Below, piece by piece: positions 44,082-58,572 of a stretch of 64,000 bases of DNA; position 1 is the first letter of the stretch, and every line of letters begins with the position of its first letter. The notes beneath the pieces were generated by a model. It was given only the letters and a program-made list of their open reading frames with translations, had not been told where the DNA came from and searched no databases. The position numbers and the translations under genes were made by a program. The stretch is from positions 62,001-126,000 of the forward strand of contig NZ_FODZ01000004.1 in the NCBI RefSeq assembly GCF_900110505.1. The letters are read 5' to 3'. This DNA comes from Luteibacter sp. UNC138MFCol5.1 (GTDB lineage: Bacteria; Pseudomonadota; Gammaproteobacteria; Xanthomonadales; Rhodanobacteraceae).

Positions 44082-45089
44082 ATGAAAGCCATCGTCTACG
44101 ACCGCGCCGGGCTTCCGGCCAGCGATCCCGCCGCTCTGTACGACATCGACGTGCCCCTTCCCGAGCCGGGCGAGCGCGATCTGCGGGTGAGGATCGAGGC
44201 CATCGCGGTCAATCCCGTGGACACCAAGCTGCGCGCGGCCGTGCAGCCGCCGGCGCCGCGCATCCTCGGCTGGGATGGCGTGGGCGTGGTCGAGAAGGCC
44301 GGCGCGGGCGTCGACGGCTTCCGCGAAGGCGACCGGGTGTGGTTCTCCGGCGACATCACGCGTCCCGGCTCGTACGCCGAGTACACCCTCGTCGACGAAC
44401 GGATCGCGGGACACGCGCCGCGCTCGATTTCCTCCGCCGACGCGGCCGCGCTGCCGCTGACGGCGATCACGGCGTGGGAGCTGTTGTTCGACCGTCTGCG
44501 CATTCCGGAGGGCGGCGGTGAAGGGCAGAGCCTGCTGGTGATCGGCGCCGCGGGAGGCGTGGGATCGATCCTCGTGCAGCTCGCGCGGAAGCTGACCGGC
44601 GTGTCGATCATCGGCACGGCGTCCCGTCCCGCGACGCAGGCGTGGGTGCGGGAGCTTGGCGCGCATCACGTGATCGACCACACGAAGCCGCTCGGTCCGC
44701 AACTGGTCGAGGCGGGTCATCCGCAGGTGGATCACGTGATCGGCCTGACGCATACGGGCGACTACTACGCGCAGATCGTCGAGGTCCTGAAGCCGCAGGG
44801 CCAGCTGGCGCTGATCGACGACCCGGCCACGCTCGATGCGATGCCGCTGAAGCGAAAGTCGATCTCGTTGCACTGGGAGTTCATGTTCACCCGCTCCATG
44901 TACCGCACGCCGGACATGGGCAAGCAGCGCGAGCTGCTGGATCGCGTGGCGACACTGATCGATCAGGGTGTCGTGCGCACCACCGTCGGTGAGCACCTCG
45001 GTCGCATCGACGCCGCGAATCTGCGTCGGGCGCATGCGTTGCTGGAAAGCCATCGCGTGCAGGGGAAGCTGGTCCTCGAGGGGTTCTGA
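44082..45089 (+). CDS. Zinc-type alcohol dehydrogenase-like protein (TIGR02817 group)
   Basis: 335-aa medium-chain dehydrogenase/reductase: MKAIVYDRAGLPASDPAALYDIDVPLPEPGERDLRVRIEAIAVNPVDTK, GWDGVGVVEKAG, and the cofactor loop LLVIGAAGGVGSILVQLARKLTG. It lacks the catalytic-zinc ligands of true ADHs, so it probably acts as an NADPH quinone oxidoreductase/enoyl-reductase. Divergent from the GlxA-like regulator, which likely controls it. Ribosome-binding AAGG upstream. Confidence 0.88.
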   Translation: MKAIVYDRAGLPASDPAALYDIDVPLPEPGERDLRVRIEAIAVNPVDTKLRAAVQPPAPRILGWDGVGVVEKAGAGVDGFREGDRVWFSGDITRPGSYAEYTLVDERIAGHAPRSISSADAAALPLTAITAWELLFDRLRIPEGGGEGQSLLVIGAAGGVGSILVQLARKLTGVSIIGTASRPATQAWVRELGAHHVIDHTKPLGPQLVEAGHPQVDHVIGLTHTGDYYAQIVEVLKPQGQLALIDDPATLDAMPLKRKSISLHWEFMFTRSMYRTPDMGKQRELLDRVATLIDQGVVRTTVGEHLGRIDAANLRRAHALLESHRVQGKLVLEGF

Positions 45090-45117: not shown

Positions 45118-46170
45118 CTAGCGGAAGCCGAGCAGGCTCGCCAGCGTGCCGGCGAGGACGCCGAATGCCACGACCGTCAGGGCGATGGTGACGAGGAGCT
45201 TCATCGGCAGCGAACGCACCAGCATCGCGAGCGACGGAAGGCTCACGGGCGGCAGGGTCATGAGCAGGGCGGCCGCGGGCGCGGCGCCCACGCCCAGCGC
45301 GAGCATGGCCTGCACGATCGGCACTTCGCCGGCCGTCGGGATGACGAAGAGCATGCCGGCCAGCGCGAGACCCAGCACCCAGAACCACTGATCGCCCACG
45401 TCGGGTCCGACGTGCGGAAACATCCACGCGCGTGCCGCGCCGAGCAGCAGCACGATGACGAGGTACTCGGGGATCAGGCGCACGGTCATGCGCAGGAAGA
45501 TCTGCCCCCAGCGGACGAGGACGTCGCCGAACGTGCGCGTTTCCGGTTCCGCCGGAGGCGTCGCGACGATGGGTTCCCCCGGACCGGCGAGGCGATTGGC
45601 AAGCCAGCCCAGGCCGAAGACCAGCGGAATGCTCAGCGCCAGGCGGAGGCCGGTCCAGTGCCAGCCGAGCACGAAGCCGGTGAACACGAGCGTGGCGGGA
45701 TTGAGCATGGTGTTGGAGAGCCAGAAGGCGACCGACGCTCCCGGCGCGGCGTTCTGTTTGCGCAGGCCGACCACGACCGGCGCGGCACAGCAGGTACACA
45801 TCATCCCGGGAATGCCCATCAGCCCGCCCATCAGCGTGCTGCCGAGGCCGCGTCCGCCGAGCGCGCGATGCACGGCGCTCGCGGGGATCAGCGCCTGCAA
45901 CGCCGAGCCGAGCAGCAGACCGAGCAGCATCGCCTTCCAGATCGCCTTGCCATAGGCCATCGCGTAACCGAGCGCCGCGTCCCACGACGCCGCCGGCGCG
46001 CTCGCCGCGTCGCCCATCAGGATCGACTTGCCGATGGAATGATTCGCGGCCGCCTCGAACGCGCGCCCGTAATACGGATACCACTTCACGTAGAAGAGGC
46101 CCGCCACGGCAAGCAGGAGGAAGACGGACCAGCGCATGGTGCGCGCGGAGCGCATGGTGGCGACGGACAT
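45118..46170 (-). CDS. DUF318/YraQ-family permease
   Basis: 350-aa integral membrane protein with about eight to ten spans. The signature [23 protein letters not shown] (cysteine pair with APVVVG) and [15 protein letters not shown] mark DUF318 permeases, and the second half repeats [15 protein letters not shown]. Such proteins are thought to export organics or metals; the substrate is unproven. Start [14 protein letters not shown] is set by AGGGG four bases upstream. It is divergent from selD, so a shared promoter region may be selenium-related or coincidental. Confidence 0.85.
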
Positions 46171-46250: not shown

Positions 46251-47291
46251 ATGACTTTTCCACGTTTGACCGAACTTGCCCACGGCGGCGGCTGTGGCTG
46301 CAAGCTGGCACCGTCCGTGCTGCGCGACCTGCTCGCCGACAAGCCTTCCGCGATGCCCTTCGCTCAGTTGCTGGTCGGCACCGAATCCAGCGACGATGCC
46401 GCCGTCTGGCAGGTCGACGACCGAACCTGCGTCATTGCCACCACCGACTTCTTCATGCCCGTGGTCGACGATCCGTTCGACTTCGGGCGCATCGCGGCCA
46501 CGAACGCCTTGTCGGACGTGTACGCCATGGGCGGCAAGCCGATCATGGCCCTCGCCATCCTCGGCATGCCGCTGGGCAAGATAGACACGGAAACGGTGCG
46601 CGCCATTCTCGCGGGTGGCGAAGCGGTCTGCGCCGAGGCCGGTATTCCGATCGCGGGCGGGCATTCCATCGATTCCGCCGAGCCGATCTACGGCCTCGCG
46701 GCCATCGGGCTGTGCGCACCCGGCGAAGTGCGCCGGAACACCGGTGCGCGGCGCGGCGACGCGCTGATCCTGACCAAGGGCATCGGCGTGGGCGTGTACT
46801 CGGCGGCCTTCAAGAAGGAAGCGCTGCCGAAGGACGCGTACGACGAGATGATCGCCTCCACGACGTTGCTCAACCGCATCGGGCACGAGCTCGCGAAGGA
46901 TGACGACGTGCATGGCATCACGGATGTCACCGGCTTTGGCCTGCTCGGCCACGCGCTGGAAATGGCCCGAGGGAGCGGCGTCCGTATCGCTATCGACCCT
47001 AAGGCCGTGCCGTGGCTCGCGCAGGCGGAGGCGCTGGCGCAGGCCGGTTTCATCACCGGCGCGTCGAATCGCAACTGGGCCAGCTATGGCGACGGCATCG
47101 CGCTCGCGGACGATCTGCCGCCGTGGCGTCGTGACCTGCTGACCGATCCGCAGACGTCGGGTGGACTGCTGGTCGCGTGCGACGCCGCGCATGCCGAGGC
47201 GATCCTCCGTCGCATCGTCGATGCCGGCTATCCGCGGGCGAGCATCGTCGGCTCGGTCGTCGAAGGCGAGCCCGGTGTCGATGTCGTCTAG
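46251..47291 (+). CDS. selD: Selenophosphate synthetase
   Basis: 346-aa selenide, water dikinase that makes selenophosphate from selenide and ATP, the selenium donor for tRNA-Sec. The catalytic region is [11 protein letters not shown]: the active-site residue is Cys (Cys15 or Cys17) not Sec, with the ATP-binding lysine next to it. Other family blocks are [38 protein letters not shown] and [11 protein letters not shown]. The ATG at 46251 was chosen from context; earlier starts add a weak extension. Its TAG stop overlaps the convergent LysR stop. It lies about 2 kb from the rest of the sel island. Confidence 0.95.
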
Positions 47292-48187
47292 ACGTCTCCG
47301 GCCTTCTCCTTGACCAGATCGATGAAAGCGCGAAGGCCGGCCGTCATGTGGCGGTGCGCGGGGTAGTACACGCACAGGCCATCGAAGCGTGGCGACCAGT
47401 CTTCGAGCACCGCGACCAGCCGGCCCGTGGCCAGGTGTGGGGCGACCGACCATTCGTTGGTCCAGATCAGGCCCATGCCGTCGAGCGCGGCGGCGATCAT
47501 GAGGTGGTGGTTGTCGAACCCGAGGGGTCCGTCGATGTCCACGGTGCGCTCCTCGCCATGGCGCGCGAAATCCCAGCGGTACCAGGCGCCACTCGGCAGA
47601 CGGCTCCGGATACAGACGTGCGACAGCAGGTCTTCCGGAGCCCTCGGCCTTGACCGGCCCTCGAAGTAACTGGGGGAGCCCACGACAACGAAGCGCAGCG
47701 AACCGCTGCAGGGAACGGCCACCATGTCCTGCGGCACGGCATCGATCGTGCGGATGCCCGCGTCGAAACCCTCGGCCACGATGTCGACGAAACGGCCCTC
47801 GGTCACGACATCGAGCCGCATCGCCGGGTGACGACGGACGTACTCGAGCAGGATCGGTCGCAGCACCATTGCCGCCGCGCCCTCCGAGGTGTTGATCCTC
47901 AACGTTCCCGCCGGGCTGTCGCGGAAATCGTTGGCTTCGTCCATCGCCGCGGCGATTTCCTCCAGGGCAGGGCGTATCCGTGCGACGAACGCCTCGCCCG
48001 CCTCGGACAGGGAGACGCTGCGGGTGGTGCGATGGAAGAGCAGTACCCCCATGCGGCGCTCGAGCGTGGCGATCGCGTGGCTGAGCGCGGACGCCGACAT
48101 GCCCAGCGCCAGCGCGGCGCGGCGGAAGCTGCGATGCGTCGCCACGGCGAGTACCGCGTGGAGTTCTGGCAGGCCCGTCTTCTGCAT
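47288..48187 (-). CDS. LysR-family transcriptional regulator
   Basis: 299-aa Lys[65 protein letters not shown] plus a CrgA-type effector domain. It is divergent from the SDR at 48284, and its TAG stop overlaps the selD TAG stop (47288-47291, CTAG), so the two genes run into each other. The intergenic gap holds AGTGAC (48238-48243) and GTCACT (48263-48268), a possible site. It is an unrelated module inserted between selD and selC. Confidence 0.92.
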
Positions 48188-48283
48188 TGTGCGGAATCCT
48201 TCATCGAGGCGTCCCGGATAAACCCGATTGTGAGCACAGTGACGTGCATCCAGCTTGTAGATGTCACTCAACGGAGACCGCTC

Positions 48284-49108
48284 ATGAACCCCACTGTCCT
48301 CATCACCGGCGCCTCGACCGGTTTCGGCCGTGCCACTGCGACCCTGTTCGCCGCCCGCGGGTGGAACGTGGTCGCGACCATGCGCGACCCTGGCGCTGGC
48401 GCCGCTCTGGCCACGCTGCCCAACGTGCTCGTGGTGCGCCTCGACGTGCAGGATCGCGCGAGCATCGACGCCGCCGTCGCCACGGGGATCGAACGATTCG
48501 GCGCGATCGACGCGGTCGTGAACAATGCCGGTTTCGGCCTGTTCGGGATATTCGAGGCGGCCAGCCGCGAGAAGATCCAGGAGCAGTTCGACGTGAATGT
48601 CTTCGGCGTGATGGACGTCACGCGGGCCGTGCTGCCGCATTTCCGGGCGCGGCGACGGGGCACCTTCGTCAACGTCAGTTCCGGCGCGGGGGTGTTCGGG
48701 CTGCCGATGATCTCGCTATACAACGCGAGCAAATTCGCTCTCGAGGGCTTCTCGGAATCGCTGTCGTACGAACTGGCCTCGCAGGGCATCGTAGTGAAGA
48801 TCGTGGAGCCGGGTGGCGTGCTGGACACCGGATTCAGCGCGCGCTCGACGGACGAGTTCGGTCAGGCGACGATTCCCGAGGGATACGAGACCTTCGTGGC
48901 GAACGCGGCGAAGATCTTCGAAGGCCTGCGCGCGAACCGCCTCGCGACGTCCGACGACGTGGCAGGCGTGATCTACGAAGCGGTCACCGACGGCACGAAT
49001 CGCCTCCGCTACGTGGCGACCGAAGACATCAAGCCGCTCGTCAAGGCTCGCCGGGAAACCTCGGAAGACGAGTACATGGCCTTCATGCGGCGGCAGTTCG
49101 GCGGCTGA
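48284..49108 (+). CDS. Short-chain dehydrogenase
   Basis: 274-aa SDR: TVLITGASTGFGRATATLFAARGWNVVATMRD, NNAGFGLFGIFEAAS, catalytic YNASKFALEGFSESLSYELASQGIVVKIVEPGGVLDTGFS. Its start follows GGAGACCGCTC. The TGA stop is only 2 nt before the encoded CCA end of selC on the opposite strand, so its transcript must run through selC in antisense unless it stops within a few bases. Substrate unknown; the divergent LysR is the likely regulator. Confidence 0.88.
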   Translation: MNPTVLITGASTGFGRATATLFAARGWNVVATMRDPGAGAALATLPNVLVVRLDVQDRASIDAAVATGIERFGAIDAVVNNAGFGLFGIFEAASREKIQEQFDVNVFGVMDVTRAVLPHFRARRRGTFVNVSSGAGVFGLPMISLYNASKFALEGFSESLSYELASQGIVVKIVEPGGVLDTGFSARSTDEFGQATIPEGYETFVANAAKIFEGLRANRLATSDDVAGVIYEAVTDGTNRLRYVATEDIKPLVKARRETSEDEYMAFMRRQFGG

Positions 49109-49110
49109 AA

Positions 49111-49206
49111 TGGCGGAAGAGCATGGGAGTCGAACCCACCCGAAACAGTCTGGCTGCCTCACCCGGATTTGAAGTCCGGACGCCCCACCGGGGACGTTGC
49201 TCTTCC
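49111..49206 (-). tRNA. selC: Selenocysteine tRNA (tRNA-Sec, UCA anticodon)
   Basis: 96-nt tRNA-Sec on the minus strand. Acceptor stem GGAAGAGC/GCTCTTCC has eight base pairs, with the anticodon TCA in CTTCAAA (49170-49172), a long variable arm of seven pairs (GAGGCAG/CTGTTTC), and GTTCGAC in the T loop. The discriminator G and CCA are encoded. The length and eight-pair acceptor match bacterial tRNA-Sec. It starts only 8 nt after the selB stop, so it is the last gene of the fdo-sel transcript. Confidence 0.95.
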
Positions 49207-49214
49207 AGTGACGA

Positions 49215-51149
49215 TTACGGCGAGGGACCGCCGTAGAGGTCGACGTAACGCGGCTGGATCCGGCGCAACGTACCTTGATTGAGCATAACACCCTGCCGGT
49301 CGAGGAACTCCAGGATCTGGATCGCGACCTTGCGGCCGCAGTCGAGGCGGTCGCGGAATTGCGCGGCGGTGAAGCGGCCATCCGCGGCGTGCGCCGCGAT
49401 GTCGACGGCGATCTGCACCATCTCGTGCATCGTGGCGCGCAGGAAGAAGTGATCGTGCGCCACTTCGTCGACATGGCCCAGCCGGCCGGCGAACTTCAGC
49501 ATCCGGCGGATGTGGTCTTCCGGCGTGCCGAGTTCGCCCGCGATGTCGCGCACCCGGGGCGGCTTGAACCGCGCCTCGCCGCCGAGCAGTGGTGCCACCT
49601 TGTTCCAAAGCGCCTCGCGCTCGGGGCTGATCTGCAGCGAGTGGGAGGCCAGGCGTACGAAGGCACCGTCGCGAACGACGGTGCCGGCGACGTCGGGGTG
49701 TTGCAGCGCCAGCGCGAACGCGCCGGCCGTCAGGCGCGGCAGCACGGCGAGGCGGAGTTTCTCGCGCGCCATGCCCTGGACGTCCGGTTGGGCCGCGTGG
49801 AACGTTTCGAGGTGTTCGTTCACCGCCGCCACGAAGCGCCGCCACGCGGGCATGGCGATGGCGGCGCGCTCGTCGCCGCTGTCGAAGCGCACGAGATCCA
49901 TGTCCGCGACGAGGGCGGCGAGCGTCGACGGCGTGAGCGCGCGATCGCGGGCGAACACGTCGAGGTCTCGCGCGTACGGTGCGATGTCGAGCAGGGCTGC
50001 GAGGCTCTCTCGTGGATCGGCGATCGCCATCGCCTCGCGCTCGGCGATGCGCTCGGGCTTGCGCCGCTGGCGTTCGGGGGCCCGCAGGTCGATGAACGTC
50101 CCGCCGCCGATGGTGCGTCGCGCGGACACGTCGCGGAGCACGTAGCGGTCGCCGACGGCGGCCGCGATCGGGCGGTCCAGCACGAGCTGCACGTCGGCCG
50201 TCTGCCCGGGCCGGACCTGTTCGCCCTGAAGCGGCACGAGGCGGACGCCGACCTCCGTGGCACCGTGATGCAGGCGCGCCGGAAACCACGCCACGACCGC
50301 CTTCGGCTCCCCGGGCAGCAGGTGCAGCCGGGCGTCGATGCGGTCGGTCGGCGCATGCAGCGACGGATCGACGACCATGTCGCCGCGCTGGATCGCATCC
50401 TTCGCGACGCCGTCGCCGGCGAGGTTCAACGCGCAGCGATCGCCGGCGCGCCCCGTCGTCACCTGGCGATTCTGCGCGTGGATGGATCGCACGCGAGCGG
50501 CGAGGCCGGAGGGACTGATCGTGACCTGATCCTTCACCTGCACGCTGCCCGACAACACGGTGCCCGTGACGACGAGGCCGATGCCGGGCAGGGTGAACAC
50601 GCGGTCGACGGCGAGGCGGAAGCGGGCATCGTCGCTGCGCTCGCCCAGTGCGCGCGCTTCCGCGGCGAGGCGCGCGCGCAGGTCGTCGACGCCAGCCCCC
50701 GTGCTCGCCGAGACCGGCAGGATGTCGGCGCCTTCCAGGACGGTGCCTGCGATCGCTTCGCGAATCTGGGCCTCCACGGTGGCGAGCCGTTCGGGTGTGG
50801 CGAGGTCGGCCTTGTTCAGGGCGATCAGGGCGCGACGCGTGCCGAGCAGGTCGAGGATCGCCAGGTGTTCGAGCGTCTGCGGCATCACGCCGTCATCGGC
50901 GGCGACGACGAGCAGGGCGATGTCGATGCCGCTGGCACCGGCCACCATGGTATGCACGAAGCGTTCGTGGCCCGGCACGTCGATGAAGCCGAGCGTCCGG
51001 CCGTCGTCCAGCGGCAGGTAGGCGAAGCCGAGGTCGATGGTGATGCCGCGCGCTTTCTCTTCCTTCAGCCGATCGGTATCCACGCCGGTCAGCGCGCGCA
51101 CCAGCGACGTCTTGCCGTGGTCGATGTGTCCCGCGGTACCGACGATCAC
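49215..51149 (-). CDS. selB: Selenocysteine-specific elongation factor SelB
   Basis: 644-aa GTPase that brings Sec-tRNA-Sec to a UGA marked by a SECIS hairpin. GTP-binding motifs: [13 protein letters not shown] (G1), [12 protein letters not shown] (G3), ALNKADLA (G4). It continues through EF-Tu-like domains and ends in winged-helix repeats ([14 protein letters not shown]) that bind the SECIS. The start is a GTG overlapping the selA stop (GTGA), giving [14 protein letters not shown]. Its stop is 8 nt before selC. Confidence 0.96.
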
Positions 51150-52567
51150 GGCGCCTCGGCGCTCCGTTCCGCCAGCGTGGCCAGGAACGCGGGCTCGTCC
51201 GAGTCGGCGAGACAACGCAGGTCGAAGTGCAGCGCACCGTCCGCGACCCGTCCGATGACGGGTCGCGCGCCGGTGCGCAGGCGGGCCGCCAGCGCTTCGA
51301 GCGCGGACTGGCTGCCGTGCGCGCGGATCGTCAGCGCGGCGCTCGGCAGCGTGTCGAGGGGTAACGCGCCCGAGCCGACCTGGCTTTGACAGTCGCCGAT
51401 GTCGGCATGGAACGCCTCGCCGAATCGCGCGGCGACCGCGGGCAGCAGTCGCGTCGCCTGCGCACGGATCTCGCCGACCGTGCGCGCGAGATAGCGCAGC
51501 GTCGGAAGGTGTTCCCCGAGACGATCCGGGTCGCGATAGAGCCGTAGCGTCGCCTCGATGGCGGCGAGGCGCATCTTGTCGACGCGCAGCGCACGCTTGA
51601 GCGGATTGCGGTTGATCTGCTCGATCAGGGCGCGGTCGCCGACGATGAAACCGGCCTGCGGCCCGCCGAGCAGCTTGTCGCCGGAGAAGGTGACCAGCCG
51701 TGCGCCTTCCTGCACGGCTTCGCGCACCGTCGGCTCGCGGGCGAGGCCCTGCATGGAGAGGTCGACCAGGCTGCCGGACCCGAGGTCGTTCAGCAGCGGC
51801 ACGCCGGCCTCGTCGGCGATGCCGGCCAGCTCGCGTGCGCCGACTTCCGACGTGAAGCCCTGGATGCGGTAATTGGACGTGTGAACCTTCAGGATCAGGC
51901 CGCTGCGCTCGTTCAGCGCGTCGCGGTAATCCGCCGGGTGGGTGCGGTTCGTCGTGCCGACCTCGACCATGTCCGCGCCGGCGCGCGCCATGATGTCGGG
52001 CATGCGGAACGCGCCGCCGATCTCGATCAGCTCCCCGCGCGAGACGATCGCCTCGCGACGCAGGGCGAAGGTATTGAGGCAGAGCAGTACCGCCGCCGCG
52101 TTGTTGTTCACCACCGTGGCATCGTCGGCGCCGGTCAGTTCACGCAGCAATGCGCGCACGTGGTCGTCGCGTTCGCCCCGCGCGCCCGTGCCGAGGTCGT
52201 ATTCCAGCGGCACCGGGTGGCGCATGGCGTCGACGGCCGCCTCGATCGCGGACTCCGGGAGCAGGGCGCGGCCGAGGTTGGTGTGCAGGATCGTGCCGGT
52301 GAGGTTGATGACCGGGCGGAGGGTGGGCGGCGTGTCGAGCCGCCTTGCCGCCGCGTGGACGATGTCGTGCGCCGAGGGTGGCCAATCGCCGGCGAGCGCG
52401 CTCCCGTCCTGGCGCTGGAGGGCCTTGCGTGCGTCGGCGAGCGCGTCGCGGATGGCGTTCGTGGTGGCCTGGCGCCCGTGCCGCCCGGCGAGCGCCGCCG
52501 CCCCGGGCGAGGCGAGGACGGTGGCGACGGCGGGTAGCTGGCGAAAAACGTTCTCTGGGTCGGCCAT
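51146..52567 (-). CDS. selA: L-seryl-tRNA(Sec) selenium transferase SelA
   Basis: 473-aa PLP enzyme converting seryl-tRNA-Sec to selenocysteyl-tRNA-Sec using selenophosphate. The PLP lysine is in [14 protein letters not shown] (about Lys298; E. coli Lys295). Other blocks: [17 protein letters not shown] and [14 protein letters not shown], and the typical N-terminal [11 protein letters not shown]. Its stop overlaps the selB GTG. It follows fdhE with only 12 nt between, in the fdo-sel operon. Confidence 0.96.
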
Positions 52568-52579
52568 GGCGCGTGGAGT

Positions 52580-53527
52580 CTACTCGAGGGCGTCGTCGTC
52601 CCCCGCCAGGAGCAGCGGGTTCGGTGCGTGCCTCGAGTATCCCGCTTCGGCGACCAGCAGGTCGAGGCCGAGCGAGGCGAGGTCGTCCGCGTACGGGTCG
52701 ACCTGCATGTCGCGCAACTGGTAGAGCAGCTTGCTGTAGGTATGGCAGTCGCCGCAGGTTTCCACCTTGATGACTTCCGGATCGCCCTCGATGCCCTTCA
52801 CGGATAGCTTTTGGGTGCCCTTGCAGTTCAGGCACACGGCACGGACGTGGTTCCACGACGTGGAGCACATCGAGCAGTACAGGAAGCGGCTGCCGGGCGT
52901 CGTGCCGCTGGCGGTGATGAGGCCCGACACGGAGGGCGAGCCGCAGCAGGGGCAGAGCGGGCGCTCCTCGAGCAGGCGCAGCGCATCGGCGTCGAGCCGT
53001 GCGGCCGACACCGTGAAATACACCTGCAGGGCCGCGGCGACATAGACCGCCGCCGCCGCGTCCGCCGTGGCGACGCGACCGCGAAGGAACTGGTCGGCGA
53101 GCGTCTCGATCGCGTCGGTGCTCATGCCGCGGAGCTGCGCGATCGCGTCGCGGGCCGGCGGCGGCAAGGACGCCGCGTCGATGCCGTCGAGCAGGCGGGT
53201 CAGTCCGTCGCGCCATGCGGCGTCGCGTCGATGGCCGTCCGCGGCGAGCGGCGGCAGACGGGCGTCGACGGCACGCGCGACGTCGTCGCCGGCGAGCGTG
53301 GCACCCGGCACGATCGCCGTGGCGACGTCGTGTTGCGCCCGCGAAAGCGCGGCCATGAACCGCAGCCACGGCTCCAGCGGGTGGCCTTCGGCCATCCCGT
53401 CCAGACGCTTCGCCGTGGTGGCGAAGCGGGTAGCGGGATCGGGGAGAACGATCGGATCGGGTGCCTTGACGCCTGCGTGGGACGGGCCACTCCATTTGGC
53501 GTTCGGCGGTGCTTCGGCTTGCTTCAC
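52580..53527 (-). CDS. fdhE: Formate dehydrogenase accessory protein FdhE
   Basis: 315-aa protein needed for maturation or activity of membrane formate dehydrogenases. It carries four CxxC pairs that bind iron: CPCCGSPSVSG, YCSMCSTSW, CLNCKGTQ and CGDCHTYSK. The start is a GTG overlapping the fdoI stop (GTGA), with AGGAAG five bases upstream. It stands between the enzyme genes and selA, as in E. coli fdo and Pseudomonas fdn operons. Confidence 0.94.
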   Translation of the reverse strand: MKQAEAPPNAKWSGPSHAGVKAPDPIVLPDPATRFATTAKRLDGMAEGHPLEPWLRFMAALSRAQHDVATAIVPGATLAGDDVARAVDARLPPLAADGHRRDAAWRDGLTRLLDGIDAASLPPPARDAIAQLRGMSTDAIETLADQFLRGRVATADAAAAVYVAAALQVYFTVSAARLDADALRLLEERPLCPCCGSPSVSGLITASGTTPGSRFLYCSMCSTSWNHVRAVCLNCKGTQKLSVKGIEGDPEVIKVETCGDCHTYSKLLYQLRDMQVDPYADDLASLGLDLLVAEAGYSRHAPNPLLLAGDDDALE

Positions 53528-54183
53528 GGATTCTTCCTGGGCTCGGTCTTCACGCGTTGGCCGGACGCCAGCTGATAGAACCACTTGCGGTGATGGTGCC
53601 ATGCCCAGCCGGGCGTGACGTAACCCTGCGTCATGCTGCGCACCGAGTCGCGGATCCAGATCGCGGCGTACACATGCACGATCCACACGAAGATCGCACC
53701 CAGCGCCGCCAGGCTGTGGATCAGAACGGCCGCGCGCTGCACGGGGATCGACGTCGCCTTGCCGAAGTAGACCTCCCAGATCAGGAGGCCGCTGACGAAC
53801 AGCGTGGGGATCAGCAGCGTCATCGCCCAGAACACGAGCTTCTGGCCGCTGTTGTTGCGGCCGATCGGCGGCACGTTCTCGTCGTCGTTGGTCACCACGT
53901 GCACGATGGACTTCGACCAGGCGGCGTCGTCGCGGTTGAACAGGTTGGACCGCCAGAACTGCACGAACATGCCGATCCAGCTGATCACGAGGCAGCAACC
54001 GAACCACGGATGCACGGCACGTGCCCACTGTCCGCCGCCGAACAGACCCGAAAGGAAGAACAGGATCGGGTCGAAGAACGACAGCCCCGACAACACCAGA
54101 AGCACGAACAGGATGGCGTTGATCCAGTGGTTCACGCGGTTGACGGTGGTGTAGCGCGTGAGGGCTCGCTTCGGACGGGTCAT
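53524..54183 (-). CDS. fdoI: Formate dehydrogenase gamma subunit (cytochrome b556)
   Basis: 219-aa membrane subunit that takes electrons from the beta subunit to quinone through heme b. Four spans are visible ([81 protein letters not shown]) with candidate heme histidines in them. Start and stop overlap neighbours by four bases. FdoI and FdnI cannot be distinguished here. Confidence 0.94.
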
Positions 54184-55100
54184 GGCGTCTTCTCCTCTTC
54201 CTCGATCTCGCGCAGGGCCCGATCGGCTTCGGCCTCGTCCTCGTCCCGGACTTCGTTGGGACCGATGGTGACCCAGTGGAAGAACGAGCCGATGACGGCG
54301 GCCGCGATACCGATGACCGCGAGCGGCTTCAGGATGCCCTTCCAGACGCGGACCGTCGGGCTGATGCGCGGTTCGTCGGGCAGGCCGGAGTACAGCGAGG
54401 GCTTGTCGGCGTGGTGCAGCACGTACATGACGTGCGTGCCGCCGACTTCCGCGGGGTCGTACAGGCCGGCCTTCTCGAAGCCCCGGGATTTGAGGTCTTC
54501 GATGCGCTCGCCCGCCTGGCGGTGCATGTCGGTCTTGGAACCGAACATGATCGCGCCCGTGGGGCAGGCCTTCACGCAGGCCGGCTCGAGCCCCACCGTG
54601 ACGCGGTCGGAGCACAGCGTGCACTTGTACGACTTGTGGTCGGTCTTGCTGATGCGCGGGACGTCGAAGGGGCAGCCCTTCACGCAGTAGCCGCAGCCGA
54701 TGCACTTGTCGCTGATGAAGTCGACGATGCCGTTGGCGTACTGCACGATGGCGCCGGGCGCCGGGCACGCCTTCAGGCAGCCCGGATCCTCGCAGTGCAT
54801 GCAGCCGTCCTTGCGGATCAGCCACTCGAGGTTGCCCTGTTCGTTCTCGTACTCGGCGAACTTCATCAGGGTCCAGACGCTCGGACCCAGGTCGTTCGGG
54901 TTCTCGTACGAGCCTTCGAAGTGCCCGATCTCCGGGCGCAGGTCGTTCCATTCCATGCACGCGGACTGGCACGCCTTGCAACCGATGCAGCGGCTGACGT
55001 CGATCAGCTTGGCCACCTGGTCTTCATGGTTGCGCGCCATCGGCGGCGTCAGGGTCGTCGCCGAGCGGCGGACATAGTCTTGCGATTGCAGATCTGACAT
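54180..55100 (-). CDS. fdoH: Formate dehydrogenase beta (iron-sulfur) subunit
   Basis: 306-aa subunit with four [4Fe-4S] clusters: [35 protein letters not shown] and [20 protein letters not shown]. It transfers electrons from the selenoenzyme to the gamma subunit. A C-terminal hydrophobic helix ([20 protein letters not shown]) anchors it in the membrane with the active site in the periplasm. It starts 10 nt after the fdoG stop. Confidence 0.96.
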
Positions 55101-55110
55101 GTCGGAGGCC

Positions 55111-58100
55111 TCAGGCGGTGACCGGTGCGGTCGTCGATTCGACGTTGACGAGGAACGCCTTGAATTCCGGCGTCTGCGTATTGGCGTCGCCGACCGACGG
55201 GGTCAGCGTGTTCGCGCCATAGCCTTTCCTCGCCTGGCCGGTGAAGCCCCAGTGCAGCGGCACGCCGATGACGTGGGTGGCCTTGCCGTCCACGGTCAGC
55301 GGCTTGATGCGCTTGGTCACGTACGCCTTGCAGATCACCTCGCCACGCTTGGACGACACCTTGACCCAGCCGCCCTGCGCGATGCCTTTCTCCTTCGCCA
55401 GGACCTCGCCGATCTCCACGAATTCCTCCGGCTGGAGGATCGCGTTGATCAGCGCGTGCTTGGTCCAGAAGTGGAAGTGCTCGGTGAGGCGGTAGGTGGT
55501 GGCCACGTACGGGAAGTGCTCGGGCGTGCCGAAGTTGGCCTTGTCGTCCGCGAACACGCGGGCGACCGGGTTGTGGCTCACCTTCGGGTGCAGCACGTTC
55601 TCGACGGGCGATTCCATCGGTTCGTAGTGCTCGGGGAAGGGGCCTTCCACCATGAGATCGCGCGCGAATAGGCGACCCATGCCCTCGGCGTTCATGATGA
55701 AGGGACCGACGCCGTCCGACGGCTTGATCGTGGGGCCGTAGTCGGGAACGTCGACGCCCGTCCACTTCGTCCCGTTCCACTCGATCACGGGCTTCTTCGG
55801 GTTCCAGGCCTTGCCGTTCGGATCGGCGCTCGCGCGGTTGTAGAGGATGCGCCGGTTGGCCGGCCACGCCCATGCCCAGTTCGGCGCGATGCCTTGTTCG
55901 CGCGGATCCGTGGCGTCGCGGCGGGCCATCTGGTTGCCCTTCTCGGTGAACGAGCCGGAGAAGATCCAGCAGCCCGACGCGGTGGTGCCGTCGTCGCGCA
56001 GCTGGCCGAAGCCGTCCAGCAGGGTGCCGGCCTTGGTCACCGCGCCGGTGGTGGCATCGGTGAGGTCGGCGAGCGCCCGGCCGTTCATCTCCTTCGCCAG
56101 CTCTTCCGGATCCGGTTGGCGCGGGTCCGTGTACTTCCAGGTCAGGTTGAGCAGCGCGTCGGGGAAGGCGCCGCCTTCCTTGCGGTACAGCTCGCGCAGG
56201 CGCTGGAACAGGCCGGTCATGATCCAGATGTCGGACTTGGCGATGCCCGGGGCCTCGGCGGCTTTCCAGTGCCACTGCAGCCAGCGGGCCGAGTTCACCA
56301 GCGAGCCGTTCTCCTCGGCGAAACAGGTGGTGGGCAGCTGGAACACCTCGGTCTGGATCTCCGACGGCTTCGCAGGATTCTGCGGGCCGAAGTCCTGCCA
56401 GAAACGGGAGGTTTCCGTATCCAGCGGATCCATGGTGACGAGGAACTTCAGCTTGCTCAGGCCACGACGGATCTTGCCGCGATCGGGGAACGCCTGCAGC
56501 GGATTGAAGCCCTGGCAGATGTAGCCGCTCATCTCGCCGTTGTTCATCATCTCGAACGCCTTGATGATGTCGTACAGCGGGATGTCGAGCTTGGGCAGCC
56601 AGTCGTAGGCCCAGTTGTTCTCCGCGGTGGCCGCGTCGCCGAACAGCGCCTTCTGCGAGCTGACGATGAACTTGCGGTAATTGGACCAGTAGCTCGTCTG
56701 CCCGTTGCGCAGGGGCTTGAACTGCTTGGTCTTCATGTAGTCGTCGAACGTGGGCTCACGGTCGTACGGCATGCTGAGGTAACCGGGCATCTGGTTCGAC
56801 AGCAGGCCCACGTCGGTGAGGCCCTGGATGTTCGAGTGACCGCGCAGCGCGTTCATACCGCCGCCGGCCACGCCGATGTTGCCCAGCAGCAGCTGGACCA
56901 TCGCCATGGCGCGGATGTTCTGCGCACCCACCGTGTGCTGCGTCCAGCCGAGCGCGAACAGGCTGGTCATGGCCTTGTCGGGCGCGGAGGTCGCGGCGAT
57001 CAGTTCGCAGATGTGCAGGAACTTGTCCTGCGGCGTGCCGGTGATACGCGAAACCATCTCCGGCGTGTACCGCGAGACGTGCTGCTTCAGCAGGTTGATG
57101 ACGCAGCGCGGGTTCTGCCAGGTGTCGTCCGACTTCGCGAAGCCGTTCTCGTCCAGCTCGTAATCCCACGACGAGCGGTCGTAGCCGTGCTTGGCCTCGT
57201 CGTAGCCGCTGAACAGGCCGTCCTGGAAGCCGAAGCCCTCCTGCACGATCAGGCTGGCGTTCGTGTACGAGCGCACGTACTCGTGCTGGATGGCGTCCTT
57301 CTCGAGCAGGTAGCGCATCAGGCCGCTGAGGAACGCGATGTCCGTGCCCGGCCGGATGGGGGCGTAATAATCCGCGACCGACGCCGTGCGCGTGAACCGT
57401 GGGTCGACCACGATCAGCTTCGCGCCGTTCTCGATCTTCGCTTCGATCACCCATTTGAAGCCGCACGGGTGCGCTTCGGCGGCGTTGCCGCCCATCACGA
57501 TCACCACATTGGCGTTCTTGATGTCCTGCCAGGTGTTCGTCATCGCACCGCGACCGAATGATGGGGCCAGACTGGCCACCGTCGGTCCGTGTCAGACGCG
57601 CGCCTGGTTGTCGAACACCACCATGCCGAGCGAGCGGGCCACCTTCCACGTGAGGTAGGCGGTTTCACTGGACGACGCGGATGCCGCGAGCATGCCCGTG
57701 CTGGTCCACCGGTTGACGGTGGTGCCGGCGTCGTTGGTCGTCTTGAAGTGCTTGTCGCGGTCGTCCTTCATGAGGCGCGCGATGCGGTCGAGCGCGAAGT
57801 CCCAGGAGACTTCCTTGAAGTCCGTGCCGCCGGGCTCGCGATAGCGCGGAGCCTTCAGGCGCGTCGGCGCATGGACGATGTCGAGCAGCGCCGAACCCTT
57901 GGGGCAGAGCGTGCCCCGGTTCACCGGATGATCCGGATCGCCTTCGATATGGATGATGTTCGACACCGCATTCTTGGCACGGTCGCCCATGCTGTAGATG
58001 AGGATGCCGCAGGCCACCGAGCAGTACGTGCAGGTATTGCGCGTCTCGGTGGCATGGGTGAGCTTGAAGGGCCGGACGGCGGCGGCCTGCGCCACCCCCG

Positions 58101-58185
58101 CCGCCCCGAAGCCGAGGAGGCCGAGGCTCGAGGCGGTGATGCCTAGGCCGGTGAACTTGATGAACTCGCGGCGGGTCATTGCCAT
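55111..58185 (-). CDS. fdoG: Selenocysteine-containing formate dehydrogenase alpha subunit
   Basis: Catalytic subunit of a respiratory formate dehydrogenase (1024 aa including Sec198; E. coli FdoG is 1016), which oxidises formate in the periplasm with a Mo-bis-MGD and one [4Fe-4S] cluster. [20 protein letters not shown] is a Tat signal peptide. The cluster motif is [14 protein letters not shown] with a later GTLCPKGSA cysteine. The frame is interrupted by TGA at 57592-57594 in [17 protein letters not shown], exactly where FdoG/FdnG carry Sec. SECIS and selABCD make this a selenoprotein, not a broken gene. The start follows GGGAG; an ATG two codons in is an alternative. Confidence 0.95.
57563..57580 (-). 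promoter_or_regulatory. SECIS element of fdoG
   Basis: Hairpin GGTGGCCAGTCTGGCCCC beginning 11 nt after the Sec codon: GG, bulged T, GGCCA, loop GTC, TGGCC, CC. The layout matches the E. coli fdnG/fdhF SECIS, where SelB binds the bulged U and the apical GU. The structure is by inspection of pairing only. Confidence 0.85.
57592..57594 (-). other. Selenocysteine codon (in-frame TGA) of fdoG
   Basis: TGA codon 198 of fdoG, flanked by ...NQARV and HGPTV..., the conserved Sec site of FdoG/FdnG. On a naive reading it splits the gene into two ORFs (57592-58185 and 55111-57579). Confidence 0.97.
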
Positions 58186-58376: not shown

Positions 58377-58445
58377 TGTTGGAGCGCACCTGGGCGCGAT
58401 GGGAGCTCGCCGCGAACCCTGATCGCGCCCAGGTGCGCTCCAACA
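58377..58445. repeat. Perfect 24-bp inverted repeat (REP-like)
   Basis: Arms 58377-58400 and 58422-58445 are exact reverse complements (core GGAGCGCACCTGGGCGCGA) around a 21-nt spacer. The core differs from the 26813 family at two positions, G to C and C to G. Confidence 0.92.
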
Positions 58446-58556
58446 GGCGCGATGGGAGCTCACCGCGACCCTGATCGCGCCCAGGTGTGCTCCTACGGGC
58501 GCGATGGGGGCTAGTCGAGGCCCCGATCGCGCCCAGGTGCGCTGCTACGGGCGTTT
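58396..58556. repeat. Three tandem ~52-bp units
   Basis: The segment beginning GCGATGGGAGCTC... recurs at 58396, 58449 and 58501 (spacings 53 and 52). Each unit ends in GATCGCGCCCAGGTG(C/T)GCT. The first unit forms the left part of the perfect palindrome; units two and three have partial right arms (GGTGTGCTCCTAC, GGTGCGCTGCTAC). Probably expanded from a REP-like element. Confidence 0.85.
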
Positions 58557-58572
58557 CGTTGGTCGCGGCGGC

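Follow-up and report, generated by a model that had tools for sequence, protein, structure and literature searches.

We analysed a 64,000 nt stretch of the genome of Luteibacter sp. UNC138MFCol5.1 (contig NZ_FODZ01000004.1, positions 62,001–126,000; hereafter the window), in which an earlier note, made from the letters alone, had placed a complete selenocysteine (Sec) system together with a selenoprotein formate dehydrogenase (FDH). Judging from its sequence, and with a probability that we put at about 93 % for the Sec–FDH core, this locus is a horizontally acquired Sec-decoding module with one recognised client, a membrane-bound formate dehydrogenase N/O. That selD, selA, selB, selC and fdoGHI–fdhE all lie in one 12 kb stretch, as the note had it, was borne out by profile searches and by ARAGORN and Rfam. 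The NCBIfam equivalogs for SelA, SelB, SelD and FdhE, and for the alpha, beta and gamma subunits of FDH-N, all scored over their cut-offs, with the three subunits sitting in one operon. The conserved module reaches past position 46251 as far as 45118, and thereby takes in a little-studied YraQ-like permease that is a candidate selenium transporter.

The selenocysteine locus and its in-frame UGA

The features of the locus, in window coordinates, are:

55111–58185, minus strand: fdnG/fdoG (here fdnG), FDH-N alpha subunit, selenoprotein (TIGR01553; single TGA; Sec is residue 198)
57539–57597, minus strand: SECIS_3 element (Sec insertion sequence) across the UGA at 57592–57594 (RF01989, 82.6 bits, model positions 1–59 of 59)
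54180–55100, minus strand: fdnH/fdoH, iron-sulfur beta subunit (TIGR01582, 456.9 bits)
53524–54183, minus strand: fdnI/fdoI, cytochrome b gamma subunit (TIGR01583, 162.6 bits)
52580–53527, minus strand: fdhE, FDH accessory protein (TIGR01562, 237.2 bits; PF04216; start set by eye)
51146–52567, minus strand: selA, selenocysteine synthase (TIGR00474, 568.8 bits)
49215–51149, minus strand: selB, Sec elongation factor (TIGR00475, 412.7 bits; winged-helix domains PF09107, PF09106 and PF21214)
49111–49206, minus strand: selC, tRNA-Sec with anticodon UCA (tca) (ARAGORN; RF01852, 80.9 bits, E 4.3e-15)
48280–49108, plus strand: short-chain dehydrogenase (SDR), start approximate (PF00106, 164 bits)
47288–48187, minus strand: LysR-type regulator (PF03466, 131 bits)
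46251–47291, plus strand: selD, selenophosphate synthetase, Cys form by its GCGCK sequence (TIGR00476, 422 bits)
45118–46170, minus strand: YraQ-like permease, candidate selenium transporter (PF03773 ArsP_1, 68.9 bits; cut-off 32.3)

The alpha subunit had been read through a TGA in the note, and at the sequence level this reading holds. Both pieces of fdnG lie in the same frame and are joined by one TGA at 57592–57594, in the context ARV-U-HGPT, giving 1024 codons when counted from 58185, and the UGA falls inside the SECIS_3 match. The piece after the TGA scored 1225 bits against TIGR01553, which is over the cut-off by itself. The piece before it scored 228 bits, below the 814 set for the whole protein, which is what approximately one-fifth of a protein should give. 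The FdnG N-terminus carries an 11-residue stretch that we take to be a leader of the twin-arginine type. At gathering score, Rfam returned two matches across the 64 kb window, tRNA-Sec and SECIS_3 (E 4.5e-18), and the tRNA-Sec is the single tRNA gene that ARAGORN called there. The selB GTG start, set by eye, overlaps the selA stop, and the selB stop lies 8 nt ahead of selC. The UHxP motif, which the accessible part of PMC13188914 tables for the FDH active site, is present in FdnG as ARVUHGPT. The genes, the UGA, the SECIS element and the tRNA are thus established from the DNA itself.

That fdnG has decayed, with the TGA a nonsense codon and the sel genes relics, we regard as extremely improbable. 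A standard-code reading does yield two open reading frames (ORFs), but the SECIS_3 element is intact at the TGA and every sel gene is intact and over cut-off. Of 25 Rhodanobacteraceae-type loci, moreover, 23 share the TGA context and two, L009 and L024, are cut by a contig end inside fdnG, and each FDH-N alpha match in 54 of 54 family genomes holds one TGA, as counted without positions. The SECIS_3 element, the shared context and the single TGA per family genome together led us to reject a pseudogene or frameshift at the TGA; no frameshift near 57592, which the note had named as a finding that would undo it, is needed, as both pieces are in one frame. Its further expectation, that automated annotation would call fdoG a pseudogene, fared less well, as one RefSeq record of Escherichia coli has the homologue as a coding sequence with no pseudogene flag.

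A whole-genome search for SECIS_3 gave one match, that in fdnG, and a search for selU across the genome gave no match; the Sec machinery therefore seems to serve one protein, the search having covered SECIS_3-type elements. By analogy with what is established for these protein families, from which we infer Sec insertion, FDH activity and topology, SelD would supply selenophosphate, SelA would convert Ser-tRNA(Sec), the selC product, to Sec-tRNA(Sec), and SelB would deliver the latter to the SECIS-associated UGA of the fdnG mRNA. FdhE and the distantly encoded FdhD would then assist in maturation of FdnGHI, which would oxidize formate at the outer face of the inner membrane, with quinone as the electron acceptor. 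The YraQ-like permease, also a part of this module, would on balance move a selenium species in one direction or the other.

Distribution and origin of the module

To place the locus within its family, 233 genomes were searched, and tRNA-Sec was called at ≥65 bits. The Rfam cut-off for tRNA-Sec was passed by 193 of the 233, mostly with scores of ≤54.3 bits that we took as other tRNAs, and the interval from 54.3 to 68.0 bits was empty. On this basis tRNA-Sec (≥68 bits) is present in 54/233 genomes: 13/23 in the genus of the window and, amongst other genera (numbered here), 20/20 in g6, 4/6 in g10, 5/16 in g5, 4/16 in g24, 3/10 in g4, 2/8 in g25, 1/16 in g8, 1/1 in g13 and 1/45 in g22. FDH-N alpha scored over its cut-off in the same 54 genomes, an exact co-occurrence, and no FDH-N alpha over cut-off and lacking a TGA was found among the 233. 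The remark in the note that Sec use is uncommon in Xanthomonadales is partly right; rarity does not describe the family (54/233), the genus (13/23) or g6 (20/20), and it is the family that our counts cover. The core can be viewed as a one-client genetic-code trait, with one SECIS and one UGA found, that is gained or lost as a block within the family. Named relatives carrying the locus belong to Luteibacter, Dyella, Rhodanobacter and Frateuria, the nearest being Luteibacter sp. UNCMF331Sha3.1 (L002). A Dyella-like Sec–FDH locus with permease was also seen on a contig of a metagenome-assembled genome labelled Candidatus Eremiobacteraeota (L020), by mis-binning or transfer.

The SelA phylogeny that the note had proposed as a check was run as a quick tree of 111 proteins, comprising the window SelA, the best 80 of 437 loci and 30 of 52 SelA genomes (those with loci). 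Luteibacter and Dyella SelA form one clade (Shimodaira–Hasegawa-like approximate likelihood ratio test 99) inside an 84-row, otherwise mainly alphaproteobacterial set (98), apart from the other gamma- and betaproteobacterial rows. Because SelA is nested among Alphaproteobacteria, the Sec module was probably acquired horizontally, and the tree agrees with and supports the transfer proposed in the accessible part of Mukai 2021 (PMC8124441). One member of the family, G019 (locus L119), has a SelA that groups instead with other gamma- and betaproteobacterial rows (94, 90). Given this different origin, the family probably acquired Sec a second time, which makes at least two gains.

The content of the block from the permease to fdnG is common to the seven Luteibacter loci compared, of which six have the permease; the exceptions are L025, where the permease is missing, and L013, where approximately 4 kb lie between fdhE and selA. 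When 21 kb per locus were compared for matches of >45 % identity, only L002 had a match outside the block to a gene of the window flanks, the epoxide hydrolase. Among the flanking genes examined, some of whose ORFs were inspected by eye only, we noticed neither an integrase nor a transposase, and the G+C content shows no marked break (0.60–0.72 in 2 kb steps over 30–64 kb of the window). The view of the locus as a self-contained transferable trait therefore stands in part: horizontal gain, and content that is kept while most flanks differ, speak for it, and the distant fdhD and the lack of any noticed mobility gene speak against it.

Several observations weigh against the picture of a horizontally acquired, functional module. 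As the note had stated, fdhD is outside the window; the genome search found it on another contig (C5, 243 bits), which means that both maturation factors, FdhE and FdhD, are encoded in the genome, with fdhD, which is needed as well, unlinked to the cluster. G021, G210 and G059 each have their FDH-N alpha match split in two, with overlapping pieces on one contig in G021, and some copies may therefore be broken. In the quick tree, the fork joining Luteibacter/Dyella SelA to the nearest alphaproteobacterial groups has a value of 94 and is not starred, and using the window SelA as the query for collecting SelA rows biases the set towards close relatives. The grouping of the G019 SelA, described above, belongs with these points.

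A YraQ-like permease in selenium contexts

The permease, whose start was set by alignment with relatives, is transcribed divergently from selD; it carries a ten-residue motif and belongs to a YraQ-like subfamily of PF03773. Selenium, not formate, is the common denominator of the contexts in which these permeases occur. We lean, by a small margin, towards the subfamily marked by MMC[TS]CC being a dedicated transporter, in either direction, for SelD-dependent selenium use of any kind, and the same slight preference applies to this role extending, across Proteobacteria (Enterobacteriaceae among them) and Firmicutes, to Sec-FDH, tRNA selenouridine and D-proline reductase.

Within the family, a close copy of the permease is present in 37 of the 54 Sec genomes and in none of the other 179, four Sec-less genomes giving permease matches of only 26–27 %. 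In all 37 carriers the gene is on the selC contig, 1.1–15.4 kb from selC, and the association of permease and Sec within the family is in part mere linkage. Sec genomes without the permease were seen in genera g4, g5, g24 and g25. Amongst 55 further loci, nearly all alphaproteobacterial, 12 have the permease, and in 11 of these it is divergent from selD, with 102–372 bp between match ends.

For a wider view the same 398 genomes of a phylum sample were searched for the permease, SelD and SelA, the SelD tests lying almost wholly within Pseudomonadota. Membership of the permease subfamily was set at ≥285 bits, the next match scoring 57, and true SelD excludes 28 of the 129 genomes over cut-off, those with a best match of 193–315 bits, which mostly fell in open frames at least 700 aa long. 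The 16 carriers all fall among the 101 true-SelD genomes, compared with none among the 297 others (Fisher 1e-10; this and all following Fisher values are uncorrected for kinship). Removing the window's own genome leaves 15/100 vs 0/297, and counting the 28 excluded genomes as SelD genomes gives 16/129 vs 0/269 (Fisher 8e-9). An Enterobacteriaceae-like family (51 genomes, with an overlap of three genomes between the two samples) has an intact permease in 9/23 SelD genomes vs 0/27 others (Fisher 3e-4); restricted to genomes of ≥3 Mb, the comparison is 9/23 vs 0/8 (Fisher 0.07) and not significant alone. Left out of the 9/23 was G649 (49 % completeness), in which the permease is in two frames and SelD has eight stops, through shared decay or sequencing errors. 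The confinement to SelD genomes that a dedicated transporter should show thus extends, in these samples, to 16 of 16 phylum carriers and 9 of 9 intact Enterobacteriaceae-like copies.

Within SelD genomes the permease leans weakly to SelA (12/52 vs 4/49, Fisher 0.056): SelA is present in 12 of the 16 phylum carriers and missing from G516, G540, G467 and G542. Three of these, G516, G540 and G467, are probably pseudomonads, in which the permease is found on the downstream side of selD and a selU-type gene, and in the 17 kb taken around it there was no match to the FDH subunits of the window. SelU was confirmed as MnmH in G540 (571 bits) and G467 (569 bits), with gaps to the permease of 117 and 187 bp, respectively. 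It is through this selD–selU context, in genomes without SelA, that the link of the permease is seen to be with selD and not with Sec or FDH. In G516 the selU-type gene is separated from the permease by a 1371 aa ORF of unassigned kind (approximately 4 kb; L156, 3858–7973). Beyond the Proteobacteria, a plasmid of Ligilactobacillus salivarius (L170, 289451–311308; one of five such records) carries a 37 %-identical permease in a selenium locus with prdA and prdB (D-proline reductase), selA, selB, selD, yedE and yedF.

Motif and tree also set the subfamily apart. MMC[TS]CC is present in 55/55 subfamily rows and in 0/14 generic ArsP_1 rows, which have CSC[SG] at that place, and the YraQ-like subfamily splits from generic ArsP_1 in the tree (100/99); the Sec-locus permeases do not form one clade within it. 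The window permease carries three clustered cysteines (CxCC), and in an AlphaFold2 model of moderate quality (mean predicted local distance difference test score 77.7, predicted TM-score 0.77; the former <50 at residues 28–30, 32–37 and 44–55) the motif is placed at a helix break, where the cysteines might bind soft selenium species. Foldseek found no match to this model in the PDB at E ≤0.001 (best 0.77), and a search of the PDB by sequence yielded only weak hits, namely two copper-ATPase chains (E 0.03 and 0.08).

Other readings of the permease have to be set against that of a dedicated selenium transporter. It might export selenium that is toxic or in excess, or some other soft metalloid, like the ArsP and SaoE relatives that are named exporters; PF03773 is named after ArsP, the three clustered cysteines would suit such a role, and the permease does match the efflux models SaoE (34.9 bits) and SO_0444 (48.6 bits), far under the cut-offs of 325 and 300. 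We hold this to be possible, though the less probable reading, as the permease occurs only with SelD in our samples and differs from the 14 generic ArsP_1 proteins compared both in its motif and in its place in the tree, observations which are compatible with export too. It might, alternatively, be a passenger whose co-occurrence reflects linkage inherited within a block that is transferred as a unit. Because gain and loss of the permease in the family go together with those of the block, the 37/0 split does not count as independent evidence. Nevertheless, we find the passenger explanation doubtful: the permease has been retained although its place changes, Luteibacter having it next to selD and most Dyella loci having it between fdhE and selA, its unlinked Enterobacteriaceae-like copies occur only with SelD (albeit against only eight SelD-less genomes of ≥3 Mb), and it is found elsewhere in the company of selU or of D-proline reductase genes. 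A transporter of formate, molybdate or another FDH-linked substrate would track Sec as well, because the FDH-N of the family is always the Sec form; the permease is also near FDH genes in Sec loci, and no Cys-type FDH-N over cut-off is available in the family to separate Sec from FDH. Such a role is nonetheless thought unlikely, given the selD–selU loci, which show no FDH-subunit match, and the D-proline reductase locus of the Ligilactobacillus plasmid.

Some findings count against a dedicated selenium transporter. With 17 of the 54 family Sec genomes lacking it, the permease is not indispensable. Eleven of the 15 other phylum carriers have no sel or FDH-N gene in the 16–19 kb around the permease, which also favours a passenger, as does a 48 % relative in Paenibacillus (L166) with no selenium gene neighbour; an Enterobacter plasmid record likewise has no sel genes near the permease. 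The context evidence for a selenium transporter is good all the same, and it makes the permease a testable candidate for the open selenium-transporter problem: with a subfamily seen only alongside SelD in our samples, three selenium contexts and a homologue in laboratory E. coli, yraQ, the question can be put directly to the test.

Known systems and flanking features

The Sec–FDH core has already been described, and the permease link is the added part. Mukai 2021 (PMC8124441), in its accessible part, reports such clusters and their selB–selC junctions in Dyella and Luteibacter and suggests Alphaproteobacteria as the source; the fdoGHI–selABCD cluster of Rhizobiales, Dyella and Luteibacter given there has the same genes, genera and suggested source, and from it the core described here differs in nothing of substance. 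The permease, the LysR–SDR insertion and the 233-genome co-occurrence of Sec and FDH are not among what that part describes. Our selB–selC junction counts repeat those of the same paper: the selB stop precedes selC in 16/25 loci of this group, including the window, and falls at tRNA nucleotide 46 in 9/25. Of 55 other loci, 33 have the tRNA gene nested within selB, 14 have it after selB and 4 have it partly overlapped, and in 4 it was not found nearby. FdnGHI and FdoGHI of E. coli resemble the window in having an FDH-N alpha with SECIS_3 (our search control) and fdhE beside the subunits, the DNA being approximately 69 % identical, and differ from it, in the record inspected, in that fdhD adjoins the gene for the alpha subunit and that the 7.4 kb viewed carry no annotated sel gene.

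The YraQ/UPF0718 proteins of Enterobacteriaceae are 46–52 % identical to the window permease, share MMC[TS]CC and fall on the same side of the ArsP_1 split; yraQ of E. coli is b3151 according to the available part of PMC2731931. One review and one study, in their accessible parts, state that no specific selenium transporter is known. Amongst the matches listed for YraQ, UPF0718 and COG0701/PF03773/DUF318, in a literature search with subscription papers and preprints mostly outside its reach, nothing tied the permease to selenium. Earlier selenium-transport candidates, YedE and YedF (Lin 2015, PMC5322559), follow the same idea of a membrane protein confined to SelD genomes and belong to other families, and neither 'permease' nor COG0701 occurs in the available main text of that paper; in Ligilactobacillus, yedE, yedF and a YraQ-like permease lie in one locus. 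The organoarsenical exporter ArsP, SaoE and SO_0444 share PF03773 with the window permease, which has CxCC where the generic rows compared have CSC[SG], and the accessible part of PMC13188914 lists a Sec-containing SO_0444 protein with UxC.

The LysR and SDR genes (47288–49108) are inserted between selD and selC only in the window and L002 amongst the loci compared. A role for the LysR gene, which adjoins selD, as a selenium regulator of the kind named LysR_Se in Lin 2015 was set aside for this reason. The SDR gene lies outside the conserved module; it has an 82 % identical copy in L002 and none of >45 % identity in the six other Luteibacter loci. On the permease side, a zinc-type dehydrogenase (44082–45089) adjoins the permease and has a 39–40 % match at the corresponding place in L002, L012 and L014, and this flank may be partly shared among Luteibacter loci. 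Upstream of fdnG are 52 nt palindromic repeats (58377–58571) that resemble repetitive extragenic palindromes; their pattern recurs at 38 genome sites at ≤2 mismatches, compared with 0 for a reversed control, and is thus a genome-wide repeat.

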